A stretch of DNA of 53,912 bases from Gammaproteobacteria bacterium (GTDB lineage: Bacteria; Pseudomonadota; Gammaproteobacteria; Steroidobacterales; JABDKV01), in contig JABDJB010000088.1 of the NCBI GenBank assembly GCA_013003425.1, positions 1 through 53,912 on the forward strand, read 5' to 3'. The notes under the pieces were generated by a model that saw only the letters and a list, made by a program, of their open reading frames with translations, made no database searches and was not told where the DNA came from. This document shows positions 27,197-36,410 of this stretch, one piece after another (positions within the stretch are counted from its first letter, which is position 1; each line of letters opens with the position of its first letter). The position numbers and the translations under genes are program-made.

Positions 27197-27226
27197 TTGA
27201 CGCTTGGTAACAAGCTGTAGTCTAAT
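27197..27226 (+). promoter_or_regulatory. Candidate promoter for the M4 metallopeptidase
   Basis: TTGACG at 27197-27202 and TCTAAT at 27221-27226 with an 18-bp spacer, in an AT-rich stretch about 95 bp upstream of the peptidase ATG. The 5' leader that follows shows no structure I can identify. Confidence 0.45.
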
Positions 27227-27320
27227 TGTGCCCACAATAACCGGCGGCCTGTGTAAGTCGCTGACCAGCGTATATCCATCTATCGGGCGCATAACGCCCT
27301 CCCATACACTGAGGTTAATC

Positions 27321-30300
27321 ATGCGGGTATCCCACAGACTCTTTCTGTACGTGGCGCTTTTGGCTATGGGCGGCACGGCCATGGCCGGGCCGGATCATGT
27401 CGACGCCATGCGTGCGACGACTTCGGGCCAGCTGACAGTCGCCATGCGGTCGGATGGTGACACTGCTCGTTTCGTTCGCAGCACCGGTGACCTCGCGCCA
27501 CACCTGCGCCGGGCCAGTGCCGATACCAAGGTCCGCGGATTTCTCGACCAGCACGGCAGTCTGCTCGGGATAGACAACCCGCGGCAGCTGCGGCTGTTGC
27601 GCTCACGCGCCGATAACTTCGGCACAACAACCTTCAGTTATGAGCAAACCGTAAACGGTGTTCCCGTTTTTGGTGCGCGTATCAACGCAAACCTTGATGC
27701 AGCAAACGCGCTGCGCAGTGTAAACGGCGATTTTGAACCGGGCCTCATGCTTAACACCCGGCCGCAGCTGCGTGCAGCGCAGGCGCGCCGCATCGCATTA
27801 AAGCGTGTTGCCGCATCACGCCCTGCCCCCGGTCTGAGCGCGCAGCAACCGCAGCTTTATATTTATCGCCAGCCGCTGCGTGCCAGCGCGGATGGCCCGG
27901 CGGTCCTGGCCTGGCAGGTCGAGGTCGGCAACGATAACGATGTGCGTGAATTCGTAATGGTCAATGCTGTCAATGGAAAAATTGTTGACCAGTACACCGG
28001 CATTCATGAGGCACTCAACCGGCGCGTTTACAATGGTGGCTTTTCCGCGCAGCTGCTGGTGTGGTCCGAAGGCGATCCCACACCTTACGGTGACCCCGCC
28101 ATCGACGACCTGATCGGGTACACCGAAGACACCTATTATCTTTTTGCCAACCTTACCGGGAACAACTTCCTCAGCTGGGACGGCGCCGGCAGCATCATGA
28201 ATGCGGTGAACAACGACCCCGGTATCACCTGCCCCAATGCAACCTGGAATGGCGTCTCGATCAATTTCTGCAGCGGCACAACCAGCGATGACGTGGTCGG
28301 TCACGAGTGGGCCCATGGTTACACCCAAAGCACCCACGGACTGATCTACCGCTGGCAGTCAGGCGCTCTGAACGAATCGTATTCGGATATCTTCGGCGAG
28401 GCCGTTGACCAGCTAAATGCTGCCGGTGCCGACACACCTGCAGCACTGCGCAGCGTCGGTTCGTGCTCGACTTTCGGCGGTACAGCACCGCCCGGGTTCG
28501 AAGTGCTTACACCGGCATCGATCGCCGGCGGCTACAGCGTAGCCGGCGCAGCGTTTAACCCGGCCACGGCAGATGTAACCGCAGATGTGGTCGCCGCCGA
28601 AGACGGCGTCGGCGCCAGCACTGATGGCTGTGAAAGCCTGACCAATTCGCTATCGGGTGCGATCGCACTGATCGATCGCGGCTCCTGTGACTTCACTGCC
28701 AAAGTGCTCAATGCTCAGGCAGCAGGTGCTATCGGCGTAGTCATTGCCAATAACGCCGGCAATGATCTTGTTTTCATGGGTGGCAGCGCACCAGGCATCA
28801 CCATTCCGTCGGTATTCGTAAGCCAGACCGATGGCGAATCATTGCGTGGCGCTGCGGGCCTGACTGCCCGTCTCAACCTGGGTGGTGCCGGCGAGAATTC
28901 ATTACGCTGGCTGATGGGTGAGGATGCCAGTGGCTTTGGCGGTGCCATACGTGACCTGTGGAATCCGCAGTGTTACGGCGACCCGGGTAGAGTCAGCGAC
29001 GGCGAGTATTTCTGTAACGGTGAAGTCGACGGTGGCGGCGTCCACACAAACTCGGGCGTGCCGAACCATGCGTTTGCCCTGCTGGTCGACGGTGGCACCT
29101 ATAACGGCTACACGATAAACAGCATCGGCATGAATAAAGCGCTCAATATCTATTGGCGCGCCGCGAGTGTCTACCAGACACCAACCACTGACTTTGCCGA
29201 TCACGCCGATTCCCTGGAGGCATCGTGTGCTGACCTCATCGGCAGTTCACTCACCAACCTCGGCACCCAGGCTCAGGGTGGCGGCGAATCGGGTCTTGCC
29301 ATTACCGCAGCCGACTGCACGGCAGTGGCGGCTGCGATTGCCGCGACCGAACTGCGGCTTGAACCGGTACAGTGCAATTTCAACAAGCTGCTGGATACCG
29401 ATGCCCCGGACCTGTGCACCCAGGGCAGCAGCGCCCAGACCATCTTCGCCGAGGATTTTGAAGCCGGACTCAACAACTGGACGGCCGGCACCCGTGAAAT
29501 ACTGAATCCTGCAACCTTCAGCGGCCCGGACTGGACTACCAGCAGCGACCTGCCGACAGGCCGCAGCGGCACCGCCGCCTACGGCCCCAACCTGGTGCTC
29601 GGTAACTGCAGTAATGACATCGAGTCGGGCATCATTTACCTGGAAAGCCCCGCAATAAACCTGCCGGCTGGAATCGATGCGGCACGGATGGCCTTTGACC
29701 ATTCGGTTGCGACCGAGGCCGACTATGACGGCGCCAACATCAAGGTCAGCGTCAACGGCGGGCCGTGGCAGTTGCTGCCGGCCAGCGCGTTCACCTTCAA
29801 TGCCTACAACGGCAGCCTGGTCAGCAGTGACAATCCGATGGCCGGCGAACCGGCCTTCAATGGCACCGATGAGGGCTCGTTGTCCAGTGGCTGGGGCCAG
29901 TCACAGGTTAACTTTTCAGGTGTAGCCGCGGCAGGCGATTCAGTTCGACTGCGTTTCGAAGTGGGCATGGACGGCTGTAACGGCCTGCTGGGCTGGTTTA
30001 TTGACGACGTGCAGCTGTACTCGTGTGCGGCGGCAGCCGACGATGACAATGACGGGTTGCCTAATTCGGCCGACAACTGCACTGCTGTCAGCAATCCAAA
30101 CCAGGTCGATTCCGACGGCGATGGCTACGGAAACTTCTGCGATGCCGACCTCGACAACACCGGTCTGGTCGACCTGGCGGACCTGGCACTGTTCCGCACC
30201 TACTTCCTCACCACGCCGTCGAGCGGCAACTGGACCCCTGCTGCCGACCTCAACAGCGACGGCACTGTCGACTTGCTCGATCTCGGTCTTGTAAGACAGC

Positions 30301-30338
30301 AGTTCCTCAGCGCCCCCGGACCCAGCGGCGTACTGTAA
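27321..30338 (+). CDS. Secreted M4 (thermolysin-type) metallopeptidase with PA insert and TSP3/dockerin-like tail
   Basis: A 1005-residue exoenzyme. Order of parts: signal peptide (about 1-22); FTP/PepSY-type propeptide (about 25-215); M4 catalytic domain with zinc motif HEWAH at 328-332 and third ligand Glu352 in NESYSDIFGE, exactly 20 residues after the second His as in thermolysin; a protease-associated (PA) domain inserted at about 375-530 (ALIDRGSCDFTAKVLNAQAAGA); the M4 C-terminal part with catalytic His575 in GGVHTNSGVPNHAF; a jelly-roll-like beta domain at about 700-900; and a calcium-binding TSP3 plus dockerin-like module from about 907 to the end. The start has GAGG seven bases upstream and begins the signal peptide; an upstream in-frame start is rejected. 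Confidence 0.93.
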   Translation: MRVSHRLFLYVALLAMGGTAMAGPDHVDAMRATTSGQLTVAMRSDGDTARFVRSTGDLAPHLRRASADTKVRGFLDQHGSLLGIDNPRQLRLLRSRADNFGTTTFSYEQTVNGVPVFGARINANLDAANALRSVNGDFEPGLMLNTRPQLRAAQARRIALKRVAASRPAPGLSAQQPQLYIYRQPLRASADGPAVLAWQVEVGNDNDVREFVMVNAVNGKIVDQYTGIHEALNRRVYNGGFSAQLLVWSEGDPTPYGDPAIDDLIGYTEDTYYLFANLTGNNFLSWDGAGSIMNAVNNDPGITCPNATWNGVSINFCSGTTSDDVVGHEWAHGYTQSTHGLIYRWQSGALNESYSDIFGEAVDQLNAAGADTPAALRSVGSCSTFGGTAPPGFEVLTPASIAGGYSVAGAAFNPATADVTADVVAAEDGVGASTDGCESLTNSLSGAIALIDRGSCDFTAKVLNAQAAGAIGVVIANNAGNDLVFMGGSAPGITIPSVFVSQTDGESLRGAAGLTARLNLGGAGENSLRWLMGEDASGFGGAIRDLWNPQCYGDPGRVSDGEYFCNGEVDGGGVHTNSGVPNHAFALLVDGGTYNGYTINSIGMNKALNIYWRAASVYQTPTTDFADHADSLEASCADLIGSSLTNLGTQAQGGGESGLAITAADCTAVAAAIAATELRLEPVQCNFNKLLDTDAPDLCTQGSSAQTIFAEDFEAGLNNWTAGTREILNPATFSGPDWTTSSDLPTGRSGTAAYGPNLVLGNCSNDIESGIIYLESPAINLPAGIDAARMAFDHSVATEADYDGANIKVSVNGGPWQLLPASAFTFNAYNGSLVSSDNPMAGEPAFNGTDEGSLSSGWGQSQVNFSGVAAAGDSVRLRFEVGMDGCNGLLGWFIDDVQLYSCAAAADDDNDGLPNSADNCTAVSNPNQVDSDGDGYGNFCDADLDNTGLVDLADLALFRTYFLTTPSSGNWTPAADLNSDGTVDLLDLGLVRQQFLSAPGPSGVL

Positions 30339-30377: not shown

Positions 30378-30773
30378 TCATCGCGCCTCGAGATCGATCC
30401 GCACGCGGATGCGATCACCGGGCTTTTCCCTGACGCGACGTGTATAGGTCTTGCCGGCATAGACGTAGCGCACCTGCCAGGCCTCAATCTGTTGCTGCTG
30501 CTTGTAACGGGTCTCGGTACGACACACCGGCCGGCGACGCCGATCATCCGCACGAATCAGTTCGCCGATCGTAGCTGCAGGCTGCTGACGACGAACGTCG
30601 CCGGGCGGCACGCTGTCCTGCGGTCTATCGCACACCTCTTTATTTACCGGCAGCCGTTTCTCACCAAGCACGGGCCGGGCCTCTATGACGCGGGCGTAAT
30701 CGACGTAGCTTTCACTCGCCCCCGCCGGCACTGCCAGCAGCAATGCGACAAGCATAAGTAAATAGTTGCGCAT
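30378..30773 (-). CDS. Small exported protein, last gene of the envelope operon
   Basis: A 131-residue protein with a signal peptide (about 1-19). The start of the mature part (SYVDYARVIEARPV) and the end (WQVRYVYAGKTYTRRVREKPGDRIRVR) resemble the flanks of glycine-zipper 2TM-domain proteins, where YDYARV...P is followed by a Gly-rich zipper and then a WxVxYxYxGxxY end. Here the central zipper is missing and replaced by a charged, Gln-rich segment. The function is unknown. The ATG overlaps the stop of the upstream lytic transglycosylase (ATGA). This is the last gene of the coupled chain. Confidence 0.72.
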   Translation of the reverse strand: MRNYLLMLVALLLAVPAGASESYVDYARVIEARPVLGEKRLPVNKEVCDRPQDSVPPGDVRRQQPAATIGELIRADDRRRRPVCRTETRYKQQQQIEAWQVRYVYAGKTYTRRVREKPGDRIRVRIDLEAR

Positions 30774-31543
30774 CAGCCACGCCGCCTGATTCTAAAGCCG
30801 GCGTTGCGCAAGCGTGACTGGGCGCGCCGCAGATCGGCCTTGCCGTTGTATAGCAGCATAACGCGAAACCTGCCCGCCTCTTCACGAAACCACTCCAGCC
30901 GCAGCGCCGGTTCTGCCGACTGCAGCTGATCGACAAAAGCCTGGGCACGGTACGGCGCACCAAAAGTAATCAGCGCCATTTTGGCCTCCACGTCGTAATC
31001 GGCACCGGCTGCGGGCGGCAGCGCGGACGGCCCCCTGCCCAGCACGTAATCAAGGTGACGGTGTATATAAGCGCTGTACCAGGCAGCGCCATCCGGGATG
31101 CGTTGCCCGGCGTTTATGCGGTGCGGTCCATAGTTGTACGCCGCCAGTGCAAGATGAATGTTGCCGTCATAGCGATTAAGCATCTCGCGCAGGTAACGTG
31201 CACCGGCATCAATGTTGGTGCACGGTTCATACAGCTTTGAAAGCTGGTGAATACCAAGGTGACGAGCGGTTGTTGGCCAGAGTATCTGCATCAGCCCGTG
31301 CGCGTTGGCATGAGAACGGGCGCGCACGTTGAAATCGCTCTCGCCACGCGCCACTGCAAGCAACAGATTGAATGGCACATCGTGCGCGATGGCCGCGCTG
31401 CGAAAACAGGTCTCGTGCGGAAACTTCAGCGCTGGCGCTGCCTGCGTATCGTTACTGGCATAGTCGTGCCACGCCTGCTGGCTCGCCACCGCTATCTTGA
31501 ACGGCAACAGCAGCAGCACAGCCAGTACCGGCCAACGCGTCAC
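30773..31543 (-). CDS. Lytic transglycosylase (SLT family) with SPOR-like C-terminus
   Basis: A 256-residue exported enzyme that should cleave peptidoglycan glycan strands non-hydrolytically, leaving 1,6-anhydro ends. The signal peptide is about 1-20; the SLT domain (about 45-170) has the catalytic Glu68 in VARGESDFN, the AHGLMQILWPTTAR motif, and LALAAYNYGPHRI. The last ~60 residues (about 195-255), FRVMLLYNGKADLRRAQSRLRNAGF, look like a short SPOR-type domain that would bind denuded glycan. The start codon is GTG and overlaps the stop of the SPOR-like gene upstream (GTGA). It is an obvious enzyme partner for the channel proteins of the operon. Confidence 0.9.
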   Translation of the reverse strand: MTRWPVLAVLLLLPFKIAVASQQAWHDYASNDTQAAPALKFPHETCFRSAAIAHDVPFNLLLAVARGESDFNVRARSHANAHGLMQILWPTTARHLGIHQLSKLYEPCTNIDAGARYLREMLNRYDGNIHLALAAYNYGPHRINAGQRIPDGAAWYSAYIHRHLDYVLGRGPSALPPAAGADYDVEAKMALITFGAPYRAQAFVDQLQSAEPALRLEWFREEAGRFRVMLLYNGKADLRRAQSRLRNAGFRIRRRG

Positions 31544-32193
31544 CGGCTGCCCCCGGTAATAGTCAGACCGGTGGCCTCTTCGATTGCGGCAACGTGTGCC
31601 AGCCGTTGCTCTTCCGATGCATAGCCAACGGCAACCCGGTACCGCGCCCGATCAGTGCGAATGACGCGATAATCCAGGCCGGTTATGCGTTCCAGCCGGC
31701 GCGCAAAAGCATTGGCCGACAGTTCGCTGTGAAACGGATCCCAAACGGGAAACCATTCGATGTCGCTGGCGATCGCCGGATTTCCCGGCGCGGTCGTTAC
31801 CGGAACATCCGTCTGTCCCGCCGATGCTGCAGGTTCTGCTTCCGCCAGTTCCGATGGCGCGGCTGGCGCAGGATCAACTGCAGACGGCGCCGGCGGTCCG
31901 GCCTGTTCGGTGCTGTCACGCGCAACCTGCAACCACTCCTCTACCAGCGCGACTTCATCCGCGACTTCTTCAGATGGCATCTCCTCAGGACCCGGCGCGT
32001 CTGCCAGCGCTTTGGCGGCTGCCAGAGGTGCCGGGCCAGGCTGACCGTCAGGCGGTGTGGGCACGACGGCACCGGCCAAAGCCGCGCCGTCACGGTCGTG
32101 CGGCGACGCAAGCGGCACCGGCTGACCAAGCATATATACGAGCATGGCGAATACCGCCGCGCTACCCAGAAAAAATCCCAGAGTTCTGTTCAT
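31540..32193 (-). CDS. Inner-membrane-anchored Pro/Ala-rich protein with SPOR-like domain
   Basis: A 217-residue single-pass protein: short N-terminal cytoplasmic start, a TM anchor at about 5-24, a long acidic Pro/Ala-rich periplasmic linker (about 30-140), and a C-terminal ~70-residue domain (FARRLERITGLDYRVIRTDRARYRVAVGYASEEQRLAHVAAIEEATGL) with the beta-alpha-beta pattern of SPOR domains, which bind peptidoglycan lacking stem peptides. It overlaps its neighbours by 4 bp on each side. A septal or cell-wall localisation role is inferred from the domain. Confidence 0.7.
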   Translation of the reverse strand: MNRTLGFFLGSAAVFAMLVYMLGQPVPLASPHDRDGAALAGAVVPTPPDGQPGPAPLAAAKALADAPGPEEMPSEEVADEVALVEEWLQVARDSTEQAGPPAPSAVDPAPAAPSELAEAEPAASAGQTDVPVTTAPGNPAIASDIEWFPVWDPFHSELSANAFARRLERITGLDYRVIRTDRARYRVAVGYASEEQRLAHVAAIEEATGLTITGGSR

Positions 32194-33587
32194 GGTTTTG
32201 CTCCATTACTCAGCTGTCCGGCAAAAGCGGCAGGCTGGTGATAAACCCGGACGCTGCGCCAGGCGACGTCATCGCCAGAATCGCCGACTGCCTCGTCGAG
32301 ACTGGCGAGCCAGCCTGGCTGTGCCCGGTATCCGGACGCGTCATCACAAGCGTCAGGAAGATGCGACAGGACACGCTGCAGCCGTGCAGCCGCACGTGCC
32401 GTTGCGGCGGCGAGCACATAAAAGCTCTCACTGCCGCCGGGGCCGTCGTGTCGCAACATGGTCGCGCCGTCAGTGCAGGACGACGGCTGCATACGCACGA
32501 GACGTGAATCGTACTGGTGGCGGACAACAAATACGGTTGCCCCCGGGCGGGCGGAAAATTGCAGCCCGTAACAGTCGCCCGGGTCGGTTTCCGGTTGATC
32601 ACCCAGGTCCTCAGCTTCCTGCGGCGTCAGCGTGGCGCAGCTGTCGGCGGCTGCAGCATGCACTCGCAAGTCCGATAACAACGTTACGGCGCGTGGCGCG
32701 ATCGGTGCCGGCGCGTCTGCACGCACAGTCGGCTTGCGCGCATGGCCGGCGGTCGAACGCAACAACGGCCGCGTTGCATAGGCGCTCGATGTTACCGAGC
32801 CAGGATCAGCGTTATCCGCAGTGTTTAGAATCGCCCACACCTGGTACAGGTTGTTATCTACCTTGTGCACCCGGGTGGTCAGCTGCAGCTGTCCGGCCGC
32901 GGCGACCGGAATCTGGTGACTACCGGCAAGGTTGCCGGCGATCAACGCCGCCGCGGTTCCGCCAACGGGTTGCACGGCAAGTTCGTCGTCGCCGCTGCGC
33001 TTCAACTGGCAGGCAAGCTCGCCGGCCAGGTGTGCCGCCAGCAGGTCCGACTGGTCAGCTGTATAAGGTGCGATACGCAGGCCACGGGCAGTGGCAGCAG
33101 TCTCCGTTCGGCGCACTGCTGCGCGTTGCGCGGCGCTAAGCTCGCCCCGCCACTGGTAACTGAAGCCGCTGACCCAGCGTTGCTCGACAATGTCGTAAAT
33201 TCGTATCTGCACATTGCCGTTGCGCCCGCTGACGGCGGCGGCCTCTATCGCAACAAAGTAACCGTCACGCGACCGGCTTGCGCAATCCTCGGGGCCCTCG
33301 GCCATCGCGATGCGCAGACCCTGGTTTTGCATCAGTGCGGCATGAAGTGCATTACGAGTAGCAACGCTGAGGCCATCCGGCTGCGCCGCGACATCGGATC
33401 CGTCCAGAACTGCAATGCGGACGGTTTCACCTTTAAAACGCGGGTGTTCGCTCAGCGTTTGCGACAGCTGTGGAACAGCCTCATCGGCCAGCCAGCCGTC
33501 GAGACTGCGGTCAGGAAATCGGGCCCAGCTGTTTGCCATGGCTGTGGCCGCCAGCAGGCTGGAAAAAAGCAGTACCAGCCCACGCAT
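32190..33587 (-). CDS. Large periplasmic protein, unknown function
   Basis: A 465-residue exported protein with a signal peptide at about 1-18. The N-terminal part (about 30-190) has VRIAVLDGSDV and TRNALHAALMQNQGLRIAMAEG, followed later by VEQRWVSGFSYQWRGEL, which is reminiscent of the nucleotide-binding-like fold of FlgO/CsgG/LpoB-type proteins. The C-terminal part (about 320-440) has a CYGLQFSARPGATVFVVRHQ segment reminiscent of DUF4384-type domains, and four or more cysteines. Both resemblances are by eye only. Overlaps neighbours by 4 bp and 1 bp. Function unknown. Confidence 0.7.
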   Translation of the reverse strand: MRGLVLLFSSLLAATAMANSWARFPDRSLDGWLADEAVPQLSQTLSEHPRFKGETVRIAVLDGSDVAAQPDGLSVATRNALHAALMQNQGLRIAMAEGPEDCASRSRDGYFVAIEAAAVSGRNGNVQIRIYDIVEQRWVSGFSYQWRGELSAAQRAAVRRTETAATARGLRIAPYTADQSDLLAAHLAGELACQLKRSGDDELAVQPVGGTAAALIAGNLAGSHQIPVAAAGQLQLTTRVHKVDNNLYQVWAILNTADNADPGSVTSSAYATRPLLRSTAGHARKPTVRADAPAPIAPRAVTLLSDLRVHAAAADSCATLTPQEAEDLGDQPETDPGDCYGLQFSARPGATVFVVRHQYDSRLVRMQPSSCTDGATMLRHDGPGGSESFYVLAAATARAAARLQRVLSHLPDACDDASGYRAQPGWLASLDEAVGDSGDDVAWRSVRVYHQPAAFAGQLSNGAKP

Positions 33588-34384
33588 CAGCTGCTTCCCG
33601 CCAGTGCCAGCGCACCTTCAGCCGTGATTACCAGGCTGCCCTGGAAATTCGTCTGCACGAAGCGACGCAGCTGCAGGGTCGTTGCTGCCGGCAGGGTAAC
33701 GCCCCAGGTCATGTCCCGTGCGGCGTGACCGTGCTGTGCCTGGAAGCTGCCCCTGACCTCTGACGGCACGGTGTCGTAGACCATCTGGTGATACTGCGCC
33801 GGGGCCGCCGCGGATTCGAAACGCACGACACCACCGGTCACCGCCATCTGGTAAAACGCCGCATCTTCAATAGCAAACAGACTGACAAGGCCACGCTCCA
33901 CCAGGCTGCGCAGCACGGTGTCCGACTCGAATTGCAATGACAGGCCCTGGCGCGCTGGTGCCGCTGTTGCCGCAGGAACCGCCGGTGGCGCTTCGCTTCG
34001 CGACGCTGCCGGCTGACTGACTGGCTGCGGTACCGGCAATGGCCTGGCCGCGACCAATCTCGCCGTCTCACGCTGCACTGGTGGGGCCGGCTCAACGACA
34101 CGTGTTACAGGCGCAGGGGCTGCAGTTTTAGTCTCTCGTACGGGTTCGGGTGCTTTGACAACGCGTGGCAACGGTTGCTTCACGCGGACTACAGGTTCGG
34201 GCAGACGTTGCTCGGGGGCCTGGCTGGCCGGAACTGGTTCCGGGCTGAGCGGCATGCTTTGCACGATGGCAAAAATTGCGACCAGGCAAAACGCCAGTAT
34301 GGCCATGAATCGCATGACATCGGTCTGCAGCTCGGAATTTTCCAGATCCGCCGTAGCCGCGTATGACATCTGCCAGGGCATCAT
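33587..34384 (-). CDS. ExbD/MotB-like single-TM protein with Pro-rich linker
   Basis: A 265-residue protein with one membrane segment at about 23-44. Just before it is the run SELQTDVMRFMAILAFCLVA, in which Asp22 sits where ExbD, TolR and MotB have their proton-binding Asp. A long Pro/Ala/Val-rich linker (about 47-145) reaches into the periplasm and a ~120-residue C-terminal domain follows; it is not an OmpA-like peptidoglycan-binding domain. It is probably the stator partner of the MotA/TolQ-like protein encoded just upstream; the ATGA overlap with that gene supports coupled synthesis. I chose the first ATG because of the overlap; Met6 is an alternative. Confidence 0.75.
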   Translation of the reverse strand: MMPWQMSYAATADLENSELQTDVMRFMAILAFCLVAIFAIVQSMPLSPEPVPASQAPEQRLPEPVVRVKQPLPRVVKAPEPVRETKTAAPAPVTRVVEPAPPVQRETARLVAARPLPVPQPVSQPAASRSEAPPAVPAATAAPARQGLSLQFESDTVLRSLVERGLVSLFAIEDAAFYQMAVTGGVVRFESAAAPAQYHQMVYDTVPSEVRGSFQAQHGHAARDMTWGVTLPAATTLQLRRFVQTNFQGSLVITAEGALALAGSS

Positions 34385-35022
34385 GCTTCCGGTTTCTCTG
34401 TCAGGTCTTCGAGGTGACGGTTCATGGCATCGAGACTGTCGCGTATTGCCTGCGCATCCTCACGACCGTGGCGGGTATAGCTACGCTTGAGTTCTGCGCC
34501 AATGGTGATCGTCTTGATCACCCGCATCAGGTACCCGCCCATGCCGCCGACTATCGTCGTCGACAGCGCCACCAGGATGCCGCCATCGACCATGCGTTCC
34601 AGCAGCGCAAAGGCGCCCGCCTGCAGCGTCGCCTGCGGGTCACCGAGCGCATGCAGCAATGCATTGCGCATGCCGATCGCAGTCCAGATAACGCCAACGC
34701 CAAAGAACAGGCTGGTCCAGATATCGGCCATGTGGTCCATCTGCGCGATACGGTCGGGTGAGTCGTGACGCAAGACGCGGCGACGCAGCTCAGCGAGAGT
34801 CTGCATGAACAACACCAGGATAATGACGAACAACGGCAGCGCCAGGCCGAGGTTTTCGTCCAGCCAGCTGAACCACGCCGGCGGGTGCATGCCGGACAGT
34901 CCCCGCAGCTCGACCAGGTCGCTGCGTGCCGTGACATACAGCAGCATCAACCCGCCGAGCGCGGCACTGGCGGCGCCGCTGGCAACGCCGCTCAGGAACC
35001 GGTTGTCACGTCCCGCCGGCAT
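34381..35022 (-). CDS. MotA/TolQ/ExbB-like proton channel
   Basis: A 213-residue inner-membrane protein with four predicted TM segments at about 11-31, 57-77, 101-123 and 146-168. The last two carry the channel-family features: MADIWTSLFFGVGVIWTAIGMRNAL, and DGGILVALSTTIVGGMGGYLM, which resembles the conserved GI..AL.TT..G segment of MotA/TolQ/ExbB. A charged cytoplasmic C-terminus follows. In the family five such subunits surround two ExbD/MotB subunits and turn proton flow into rotation. Distinct from the ExbB at 1458-2714. The gene is third in the operon, three bases from the upstream lipoprotein gene. Confidence 0.78.
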   Translation of the reverse strand: MPAGRDNRFLSGVASGAASAALGGLMLLYVTARSDLVELRGLSGMHPPAWFSWLDENLGLALPLFVIILVLFMQTLAELRRRVLRHDSPDRIAQMDHMADIWTSLFFGVGVIWTAIGMRNALLHALGDPQATLQAGAFALLERMVDGGILVALSTTIVGGMGGYLMRVIKTITIGAELKRSYTRHGREDAQAIRDSLDAMNRHLEDLTEKPEA

Positions 35023-35025
35023 CGC

Positions 35026-35559
35026 TCAGTTGGCGGCGCAGGCGGTGCAGGTTGCGGCCAGCACCAGCTCGGTTTCTTTCAGCAGCTGGTCAGCACGGTA
35101 GTAGCTGTCGCGGTCGAGCGCGACGCGCAACAGGCCCTGCTCCTTGTCGCTGAGCTCCTCTTCCATTCGCGTCAGCACTTCAGCCTGCCGCGGACAGGTA
35201 TAGGAGCAGTTGTTGTAGTCGCCGGCCAGCGACATGAACTTCACGTTGAAATAGCGGTTGTAATAAGCCTGCGCCTGGCGCTGGCTGAGCAACCCGGAAT
35301 CGGTGGACCATTCCAGAAATTCGCTGAAGGTCTGCTTGTGACGAGGTTTCGGGTCACCCTCCGCCACCGTAAGCAGCCGGTCGAAATACGCGTCGTAAAG
35401 CGCTTCACAGCCGTTGGTGAGCTGCGCCTTGCTGACTTCGATTGCTACACGCAGGTTCTTCCCATCCGGCAGCGAACAATCCGGCTGCGGTGTCGTTGCA
35501 CAGCCGGTTGCCAGTAGCAGCAACGCGGCGGGCAGGATTGCGATTTTTAATAACTTCAT
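35026..35559 (-). CDS. Cys-rich lipoprotein of the envelope operon
   Basis: A 177-residue lipoprotein with the signal KIAILPAALLLLATGC (lipobox ATGC), followed by a helical domain with several further cysteines (QPDCSLP, NGCEALY, NNCSYTC, ATCTAC). I do not recognise the family. The ATG at 35559 is preceded by GGAG at the right distance and directly begins the signal; an upstream ATG at 35571 overlaps the stop of the previous gene (TAATG) and would add MEMT. Either start keeps the translational coupling. It may link the inner-membrane channel to the outer membrane, which is inference. Confidence 0.7.
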   Translation of the reverse strand: MKLLKIAILPAALLLLATGCATTPQPDCSLPDGKNLRVAIEVSKAQLTNGCEALYDAYFDRLLTVAEGDPKPRHKQTFSEFLEWSTDSGLLSQRQAQAYYNRYFNVKFMSLAGDYNNCSYTCPRQAEVLTRMEEELSDKEQGLLRVALDRDSYYRADQLLKETELVLAATCTACAAN

Positions 35560-35570
35560 GGTCATCTCCA

Positions 35571-36410
35571 TTACATCTCGAGCGGACTGCTGTAGGCCTG
35601 CTGCACATCGCCCGGGGGTGGTCCTGCAATTGGCGCTGCTGCCTCAAAATCGCCGAACAGGATGGATTTGACGCCCGCGACAACTTCCTGCATCTCGGGC
35701 GTGATAACGCCAAAGGACTGGTTGAGTTGTTCGAGCAGTGTTGCCCGGCTGATTTCTTCCTGTGTGCGGGCGATCAACACCGCGGCTTCATCCATGTCGA
35801 GGTAGATGTCGGCCGCCACCACGGTCAGCGACTGCTCGGCTCCGGCGCCGCCACCGCTGGCGACCAGGCTGTAGTACTGACGAAAACGTTCACTCAGACG
35901 CAGCCCGGAACGACCGCGCATCGCCGGCTGCGCTTTCGCCGCTGCGGCTGGCGTTTTGCCCAGCAGGTTTTCCTGCAGGTCCCAGGGCGTCATCTTCTTG
36001 CCCACTTCGGTGCGCAGCCGCTTTTCCAGGCTGTTGCGGGTGCTCATCACCGCGCGCTCCATGTCCGGCAGCCCTTCGCTCATGACATTGAGCATCTCCA
36101 GGTAGGTTGCACCCAGCTGTCTGGCAATCTGGTCACAGCCCGGGTCGCCTTCGGCACCGTCGCACTTTGCTTCTACAAACAGCTGCTGTTGCTGATCGAG
36201 CTTGGCGATGATGCTGTTCAGCCCGCTCTCCATTTCTTCGGCAACCTGCCCGGTATGGCGGATGTCTTCGAGCACGGTGGTCGGGAACAGTCGAATGGTG
36301 GGGCCTGTAGCAGCCGTCGTCGCCGCAGATACCATTACCGGAGCCAGTAAAAACAGGCTCGCAAACAGCAGACTGACGGGGCGGCGGCGAAAGGACGATT
36401 GCTTCGTCAT
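35571..36410 (-). CDS. Exported coiled-coil protein, first gene of the envelope operon
   Basis: A 279-residue exported protein with an Arg-rich signal peptide (about 1-29) and a mostly helical mature part, including a long helix over about 45-80 (EEMESGLNSIIAKLDQQQQL) and a Cys pair in KCDGAEGDPGCDQI. The C-terminus is Pro-rich. No family is recognised. The ATG is chosen because AAGGAG lies seven bases upstream and it precedes the signal; a longer frame starting at 36500 lacks both. It is followed by the lipoprotein with a TAATG overlap, so the operon begins here. Confidence 0.72.
   Translation of the reverse strand: MTKQSSFRRRPVSLLFASLFLLAPVMVSAATTAATGPTIRLFPTTVLEDIRHTGQVAEEMESGLNSIIAKLDQQQQLFVEAKCDGAEGDPGCDQIARQLGATYLEMLNVMSEGLPDMERAVMSTRNSLEKRLRTEVGKKMTPWDLQENLLGKTPAAAAKAQPAMRGRSGLRLSERFRQYYSLVASGGGAGAEQSLTVVAADIYLDMDEAAVLIARTQEEISRATLLEQLNQSFGVITPEMQEVVAGVKSILFGDFEAAAPIAGPPPGDVQQAYSSPLEM

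Follow-up and report, generated by a model that had tools for sequence, protein, structure and literature searches.

The DNA analyzed here, contig JABDJB010000088.1 of a gammaproteobacterial metagenome assembly (GCA_013003425.1; the whole stretch of 53,912 nucleotides is called the window), carries a compact operon at positions 30378-36410 of the minus strand, whose genes were numbered g1 (36410-35571) to g8 (30773-30378) in the order of transcription. The operon is real and conserved, and no description of it was found in the open-access literature. The data favor the view that seven of its genes, g1 to g7, encode a trans-envelope force transducer that is driven by proton motive force and coupled to local glycan cleavage. 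In our estimate, the chances are slightly better than even that they represent an additional branch of proton-driven envelope motors, one that the channel profiles of Pfam and NCBIfam do not cover. In such a motor, a single polypeptide would serve as axle and lever and would form a fixed unit with a wall-cutting transglycosylase of its own, tethered by SPOR-like domains. The evidence consists of gene content, co-inheritance, invariant Asp and Thr residues, a transglycosylase domain, the behavior of a linker, and predicted folds, and the assignment of the motor rests on several moderate, agreeing lines of evidence.

The eight tightly packed open reading frames (ORFs) described in an earlier note on this DNA were confirmed by their coordinates and junctions. 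One base is in common between g1 and g2 (TAATG), g4 and g5 (TGATG), and g7 and g8 (TGATG), four bases overlap between g3 and g4 (ATGA), g5 and g6 (ATGA), and g6 and g7 (GTGA), and a gap of 3 bp separates g2 from g3. A GGAG ribosome-binding site precedes the g1 start at 36410. Scans for promoters and terminators yielded no informative signal. The sequences also confirmed Asp22 in g4, an SLT domain in g7, a lipobox in g2, and signal peptides or transmembrane (TM) anchors in the other products. Judged by sequence comparison, the conserved unit is the seven genes g1 to g7, and g8 is accessory. When genome contigs were scanned with g3, 80 loci were obtained, or 81 copies with the window included, and g1-g7, sought around g3 by tblastn and iterated hidden Markov model searches, were present nearly everywhere. 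All seven genes were found in 60 of the 81 copies; in each of these 60 they lay on a single strand in identical order, with a largest gap between neighbors of 234 bp and median start/stop gaps of 2 to 23 bp. Most of the remaining 21 copies were cut by contig ends, and three Desulfobacterales copies lacked only a recognizable g6. An apparent loss of g5-g7 in loci L067 and L070 was rejected as biology, because 100-N scaffold gaps break both stretches. The genes g3, g1, and g7, each sought independently in 59 related genomes, were found in the same 12 genomes and were missing from the same 47, an agreement expected in one of 1.1e12 arrangements if genomes are counted as independent (by genus, 6 of 27 only). 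A divergent copy, L144, from a phylum sampled around a Desulfobacterales genome, had all seven genes in the order g6-g1-g2-g3-g4-g7-g5, so the gene company outlasts the gene order. Since the seven-gene block recurs across Gammaproteobacteria and Desulfobacterales, the arrangement is not due to chance. The co-occurrence of these genes in other genomes was thus consistent with the earlier note, and its unit of eight had to be reduced to seven, with g8 outside.

The candidate for the channel of the motor is the product of g3 (34381-35022, minus strand, 213 aa). Hydropathy and an AlphaFold model, with a predicted local distance difference test (pLDDT) score of 79, predicted four TM helices and a cytoplasmic loop that is very short, with the C-terminal helix in the cytoplasm. 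Motors of 5:2 stoichiometry have conserved Thr or Ser residues in two channel-lining helices, and in g3 such positions are provided by Thr114 (codon 34681-34683) in TM3 and Thr155/Thr156 (34555-34560) in TM4, which were invariant in 79 g3 sequences. ZorA was the only motor profile that responded to g3, with E 0.0014 for the window protein and matches to 9 homologues (best 2e-4). VIA-align superposed the g3 model on type II ZorA (8vvi) with Z 9.5 and 2.4 Å over 97 of 99 residues, on TolQ (9ddn) with Z 9.5, and on ExbB (5zfp) with Z 9.0, and chains of 5:2 motors made up about 22 of the top 50 structure matches. In a profile-profile alignment, GVIWTAIGM of g3 paired with GILGTFLGI, the GT helix of ZorA, and ALSTTIVGG paired with the TS helix of ZorA.

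Several results weigh against this assignment. PF01618 (MotA_ExbB) matched none of the 79 g3 homologues, and neither g3 nor g4 was recognized as a channel protein by Pfam and NCBIfam. In the structural ranking, the unrelated gp41 five-helix bundle (2cmr, Z 9.9) stood above the motors, and Foldseek with the g3 model returned nothing below E 0.001; the fold evidence alone is therefore not decisive. Against locally shuffled controls, the profile-profile scores of g3 ranked within the top 0 to 7 percent for ExbB, TolQ plus ExbB, and ZorA, and the score for TolQ alone did not rise above the noise. Taken together, the ZorA profile, the model, and the invariant threonines make g3 very probably a remote member of the 5:2 motor superfamily, and the MotA/TolQ-like channel of the earlier note is best explained as a distant relative of MotA, TolQ, ExbB, and ZorA. 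PF01618 matches ten ordinary channels in the host genome (G000, 3.26 Mb, 95.5% complete), and g3 is not among them. One of the ten is a separate channel gene in the window at 1458-2714 on the plus strand, with a canonical match at 2328-2669.

The putative axle and lever subunit is encoded by g4 (33587-34384, minus strand, 265 aa). The partner subunit of a 5:2 motor has a single TM helix with an Asp near its start, and the g4 sequence is predicted to have the same arrangement: the N-terminus is cytoplasmic, and Asp22 (codon 34319-34321), invariant in 74 g4 sequences, lies in an LQTDVM motif that is followed by one TM helix. ExbD and TolR carry a D-V-M/L motif, of which LQTDVM is reminiscent. 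The C-terminal alpha/beta domain (residues 147-261) was modeled with a pLDDT of about 97. Foldseek and VIA, with the full-length model as query, gave no clear PDB match for this domain; the matches to g4 were mostly to its TM helix or were weak and GyrB-like. In 20 relatives the domain was confined to this operon. The earlier note had called g4 ExbD-like, which held for the TM segment with Asp22 and did not hold for the periplasmic domain, for which the PDB offered no clear match and Pfam none to ExbD or OmpA.

The linker between the TM helix and the C-terminal domain is Pro-rich and about 100 residues long in the window protein. Among g4 linkers, after exclusion of two implausibly short parses, 47 were Pro-rich, with a median of 92 residues, and 16 had little Pro, many E/K/R/Q/A/L residues, and an apparently helical character, with a median length of 159 residues; the difference in length gave a Mann-Whitney P of 5e-8, a value not corrected for relatedness. 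The maximum reach was similar in size, about 28 nm for the Pro-rich class (0.31 nm per residue) versus about 24 nm for the helical class (0.15 nm per residue). In domain II of TonB and TolA, too, a helical version takes more residues to extend equally far (PMC12204202). Because the g4 linker behaves like this domain, we infer that g4 may be axle and lever in one chain. A fusion of g3 and g4 in one in-frame ORF (L084:1113-2753) was not used, since it comes from a single 3.5-kb contig and may reflect a lost stop codon.

The product of g7 (30773-31543, minus strand, 256 aa) is, by its sequence, an exported SLT lytic transglycosylase. Its SLT domain (residues 46-145) matched PF01464 with E 2e-25, the family was found in 59 of 59 g7 homologues (best 2.5e-30), and Glu68 (codon 31340-31342) was invariant, as expected from the catalytic Glu noted before. 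A SPOR-like domain at the C-terminus of g7 (residues 194-250) scored 22.4 against SPOR (PF05036), which is above 60 of 60 shuffles (maximum 17.1) and below the profile cut-off. The product of g6 (31540-32193, minus strand, 217 aa) is anchored in the inner membrane and has a Pro/Ala-rich linker and a SPOR-like C-terminal domain; hhalign (P 3.5e-8) showed this domain to be a homologue of the g7 C-terminus. The score of g6 against PF05036 was 13.5, below both the shuffle maximum of 16.2 and the profile cut-off. The membrane anchor of the SPOR-like protein of the earlier note was upheld, and the assignment of this protein to SPOR is weak in sequence. SPOR domains of characterized division proteins bind peptide-free glycan at septa. 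The presence of a common SPOR-like domain in the enzyme g7 and the membrane protein g6 suggests recruitment to wall under processing.

The other products were also investigated. The exported helical protein g1 (35571-36410, minus strand, 279 aa, signal peptide about 1-31) is the most conserved of the set, with 67% mean column identity in 72 sequences, invariant Cys83 and Cys92, and a conserved C-terminal SPLE; no Pfam family was found in its 72 members. More generally, Pfam, NCBIfam, and PADLOC with the window proteins and Pfam with whole alignments gave no family for g1, g3, or g4, and PDB sequence-profile searches with g1, g3, g4, and g5 gave nothing meaningful. The Cys-rich lipoprotein g2 (35026-35571, minus strand, 181 aa) had no Pfam match in the window; a lipobox-like motif was present in 74 of 80 homologues, and the +2 residue was Ala in 49, so g2 is probably located in the outer membrane. 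The large periplasmic protein g5 (32190-33587, minus strand, 465 aa) has homologues whose C-terminal part is DUF4384 (PF14326 in 5 of 68, best 6.9e-11), and the window g5 itself had no match. The small exported protein g8 (30378-30773, minus strand, 131 aa) has a weak likeness to PRK11280, and was seen in 14 loci, several of which are stray opposite-strand paralogues.

In public records, the host genome is closely related to metagenome assemblies of Gammaproteobacteria, many of which carry the label Woeseiaceae. The g3 loci were mostly from Woeseiaceae, and others came from Chromatiales-type metagenome-assembled genomes, tubeworm endosymbionts (Lamellibrachia, Escarpia), Thiogranum, Motiliproteus, and Desulfobacterales. 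Certain bacteria of sediments and certain symbionts are among the carriers. The g1 gene was found in 6 of 369 sampled Gammaproteobacteria, in 64 of 396 genomes of its own order (a few as fragmentary matches), and in 2 of 297 genomes of the phylum around genome G423; g3 was found in a single genome among 398 that were drawn from the same phylum as the window. By these counts, the system is rare in general, frequent in some families, and patchy within an order. A search of 72,556 plasmids and 50,697 phage records with g1 returned no match, so the system is not carried by the known mobile elements searched. Genome G398 has two diverged copies of the cassette (L145 and L146), each with g1-g7.

The flanking genes differ among lineages. 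In the window, the operon is flanked by a pyridoxal-dependent decarboxylase and an M4 metallopeptidase, the latter (27204-30338, plus strand) lying convergent to the operon and encoding a large exported protein with PA, thrombospondin type 3, and dockerin-like repeats. In Woeseiaceae, FeoA/FeoB-like genes and a deoxynucleoside-kinase-like gene, named by eye from their sequences, lie on the opposite strand. In the Desulfobacterales loci L087, L091, and L092, a putative sigma factor (by appearance, with no Pfam match) and a membrane protein that weakly matches zf-HC2 lie upstream, and a caspase-DUF4384 protein (Pfam-tested in L092) and a TPR-OmpA protein (Pfam-tested in L091 and L092) lie downstream. 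This surrounding suggests dedicated regulation and an alternative wall anchor, and the occurrence of an OmpA wall-binding protein where g6 is missing hints that the machine needs a wall anchor.

From these data a working model was drawn, in which we infer stoichiometry, proton use, partner contacts, site, and role. The g3 product, probably in five copies by analogy with its relatives, would form a channel around a g4 dimer, and protons would pass between Asp22 of g4 and the TM3 and TM4 threonines of g3, turning or rocking g4. The periplasm-length linker of g4 would carry the force to the C-terminal domain near the peptidoglycan or the outer membrane, where this domain would come into contact with the helical g1, the lipoprotein g2, and g5, the DUF4384 protein. 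Glycan strands would be cleaved by the g7 enzyme, and g6 and g7 would use their SPOR-like domains to keep the machine on wall under cleavage. The most likely outcome would be force-coupled opening or remodeling of the wall at a specific site by a second Tol-like system beside the ordinary TolQ/ExbB/MotA-type motors. A Tol-like role in remodeling of wall and envelope, perhaps at division, is tentatively put forward as the most likely use.

Other readings, which partly overlap with the transducer and with each other, were weighed against the same data. The motor and g1, g2, and g5 could build a conduit or move a surface substrate, with g7 only opening the wall for assembly, as in flagella and in type III and type IV secretion. 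Among named models, g7 is closest to BB0259 of flagellar assembly and also matches IagB of type III secretion, and the periplasm-spanning g4 recalls the GldM-type drive of secretion. However, the neighborhoods of the cassette copies showed no outer-membrane barrel, secretin, ATPase, or conserved cargo gene, and the named assembly transglycosylases usually lack a SPOR-like domain, so we regard an assembly or secretion machine as rather unlikely. A membrane scaffold without a motor, in which g3 and g4 are ordinary and the operon is a plain wall-hydrolase module, would explain why neither protein has a significant Pfam match and why the fold matches are within helical-bundle noise. It leaves aside the invariant polar residues in predicted TM helices (Thr114 and Thr155/156 of g3, Asp22 of g4), the enrichment of 5:2 motors among the g3 fold matches, the ZorA profile match, and the lever-like variation of the linker, and is judged unlikely.

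A motor for gliding or surface motility analogous to AglRQS-Glt, with the transglycosylase preparing the wall for force transmission, is quite improbable. AgmT sets a precedent, and a seven-gene Glt/Agl core is present in non-gliding Gammaproteobacteria (PMC3169522), but AglR, AglQ, and AglS belong to the ordinary large channel families and work with TPR and FHA partners, none of which was found by Pfam in g1-g8, and no adhesin or polarity gene was seen recurring beside the cassette. The response of g3 to ZorA as its only motor profile would also suit a Zorya-like defense against phages that includes parts acting on the wall. In Zorya, ZorC, ZorD, or ZorE stands beside ZorAB, whereas PADLOC on the eight proteins returned a weak ZorA match only and nothing like ZorC, ZorD, or ZorE, and g4 had no OmpA match. 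The lack of g1 matches in the plasmid and phage records searched and the conserved Woeseiaceae neighborhood, which is of housekeeping type and not a defense island, also argue against this reading, and we give it very little credence.

Proton-driven envelope motors are few: flagellar stators, Tol, Ton, gliding, and Zorya. How motor force reaches the wall being cut is an open question, and a motor hard-wired to a lytic transglycosylase, if true, would make it directly testable. Surveys based on profiles can miss motors; PF01618 counts ten channels in this genome, and g3 would be the eleventh. No published system with this gene content was found in the open-access literature, a scope that leaves subscription journals and preprints mostly outside, and the possible novelty raised in the earlier note stood within that scope.

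Comparison with known systems showed likenesses to several of them. Like Tol-Pal, the operon has a putative inner-membrane proton motor pair with a proposed lever to the outer envelope, a lipoprotein, helical and multi-domain periplasmic partners, and a possible link to septal wall hydrolysis. It differs in having its own lytic transglycosylase and SPOR-like domains and in the proposed fusion of axle and lever in g4, for Tol and Ton divide this work between TolR/ExbD and TolA/TonB. No Pfam match to TolA, the TolB propeller, or Pal (OmpA) was seen in g1-g8 of the window or listed for the alignments of g1, g4, g5, and g6, g2 being covered by the window protein only. In Chlamydia, a transglycosylase gene sits with tol-pal (PMC7391070). 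In Myxococcus xanthus, the gliding complexes that contain AglR require active AgmT for their attachment to the wall, a case in which a proton motor can engage the wall only with the help of a lytic transglycosylase; however, AgmT resembles MltG and is not built into the motor complexes (PMC11444678). The Glt TPR and FHA partners are absent from g1-g8, and no TPR, FHA, MotA_ExbB, or ExbD Pfam match, as would mark the Glt/Agl core, was found in the eight window proteins. The function of that core in non-gliding Gammaproteobacteria is unknown (PMC3169522); its occurrence there indicates that motor cores spread between these classes, and its parts differ from g1-g7.

The SiiAB proteins of Salmonella SPI-4 are a small divergent MotAB-like pair that serves type I secretion of an adhesin. 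Set beside g3-g4 by description, they are likewise a small divergent pair serving an envelope machine, but the genes for type I secretion and the adhesin are absent from the g1-g7 set. SiiAB has been listed among such motors (PMC12204202). ZorAB gives the nearest profile and is among the nearest folds for g3; in contrast to it, g3 has no long cytoplasmic tail, g4 has no OmpA match, and the operon has no ZorC, ZorD, or ZorE match. A phylogenetic study of MotAB and its relatives kept ZorAB and GldLM out of its trees as homologues of a more remote kind (PMC12505986), and the g3-g4 pair would belong with them in this remote zone.

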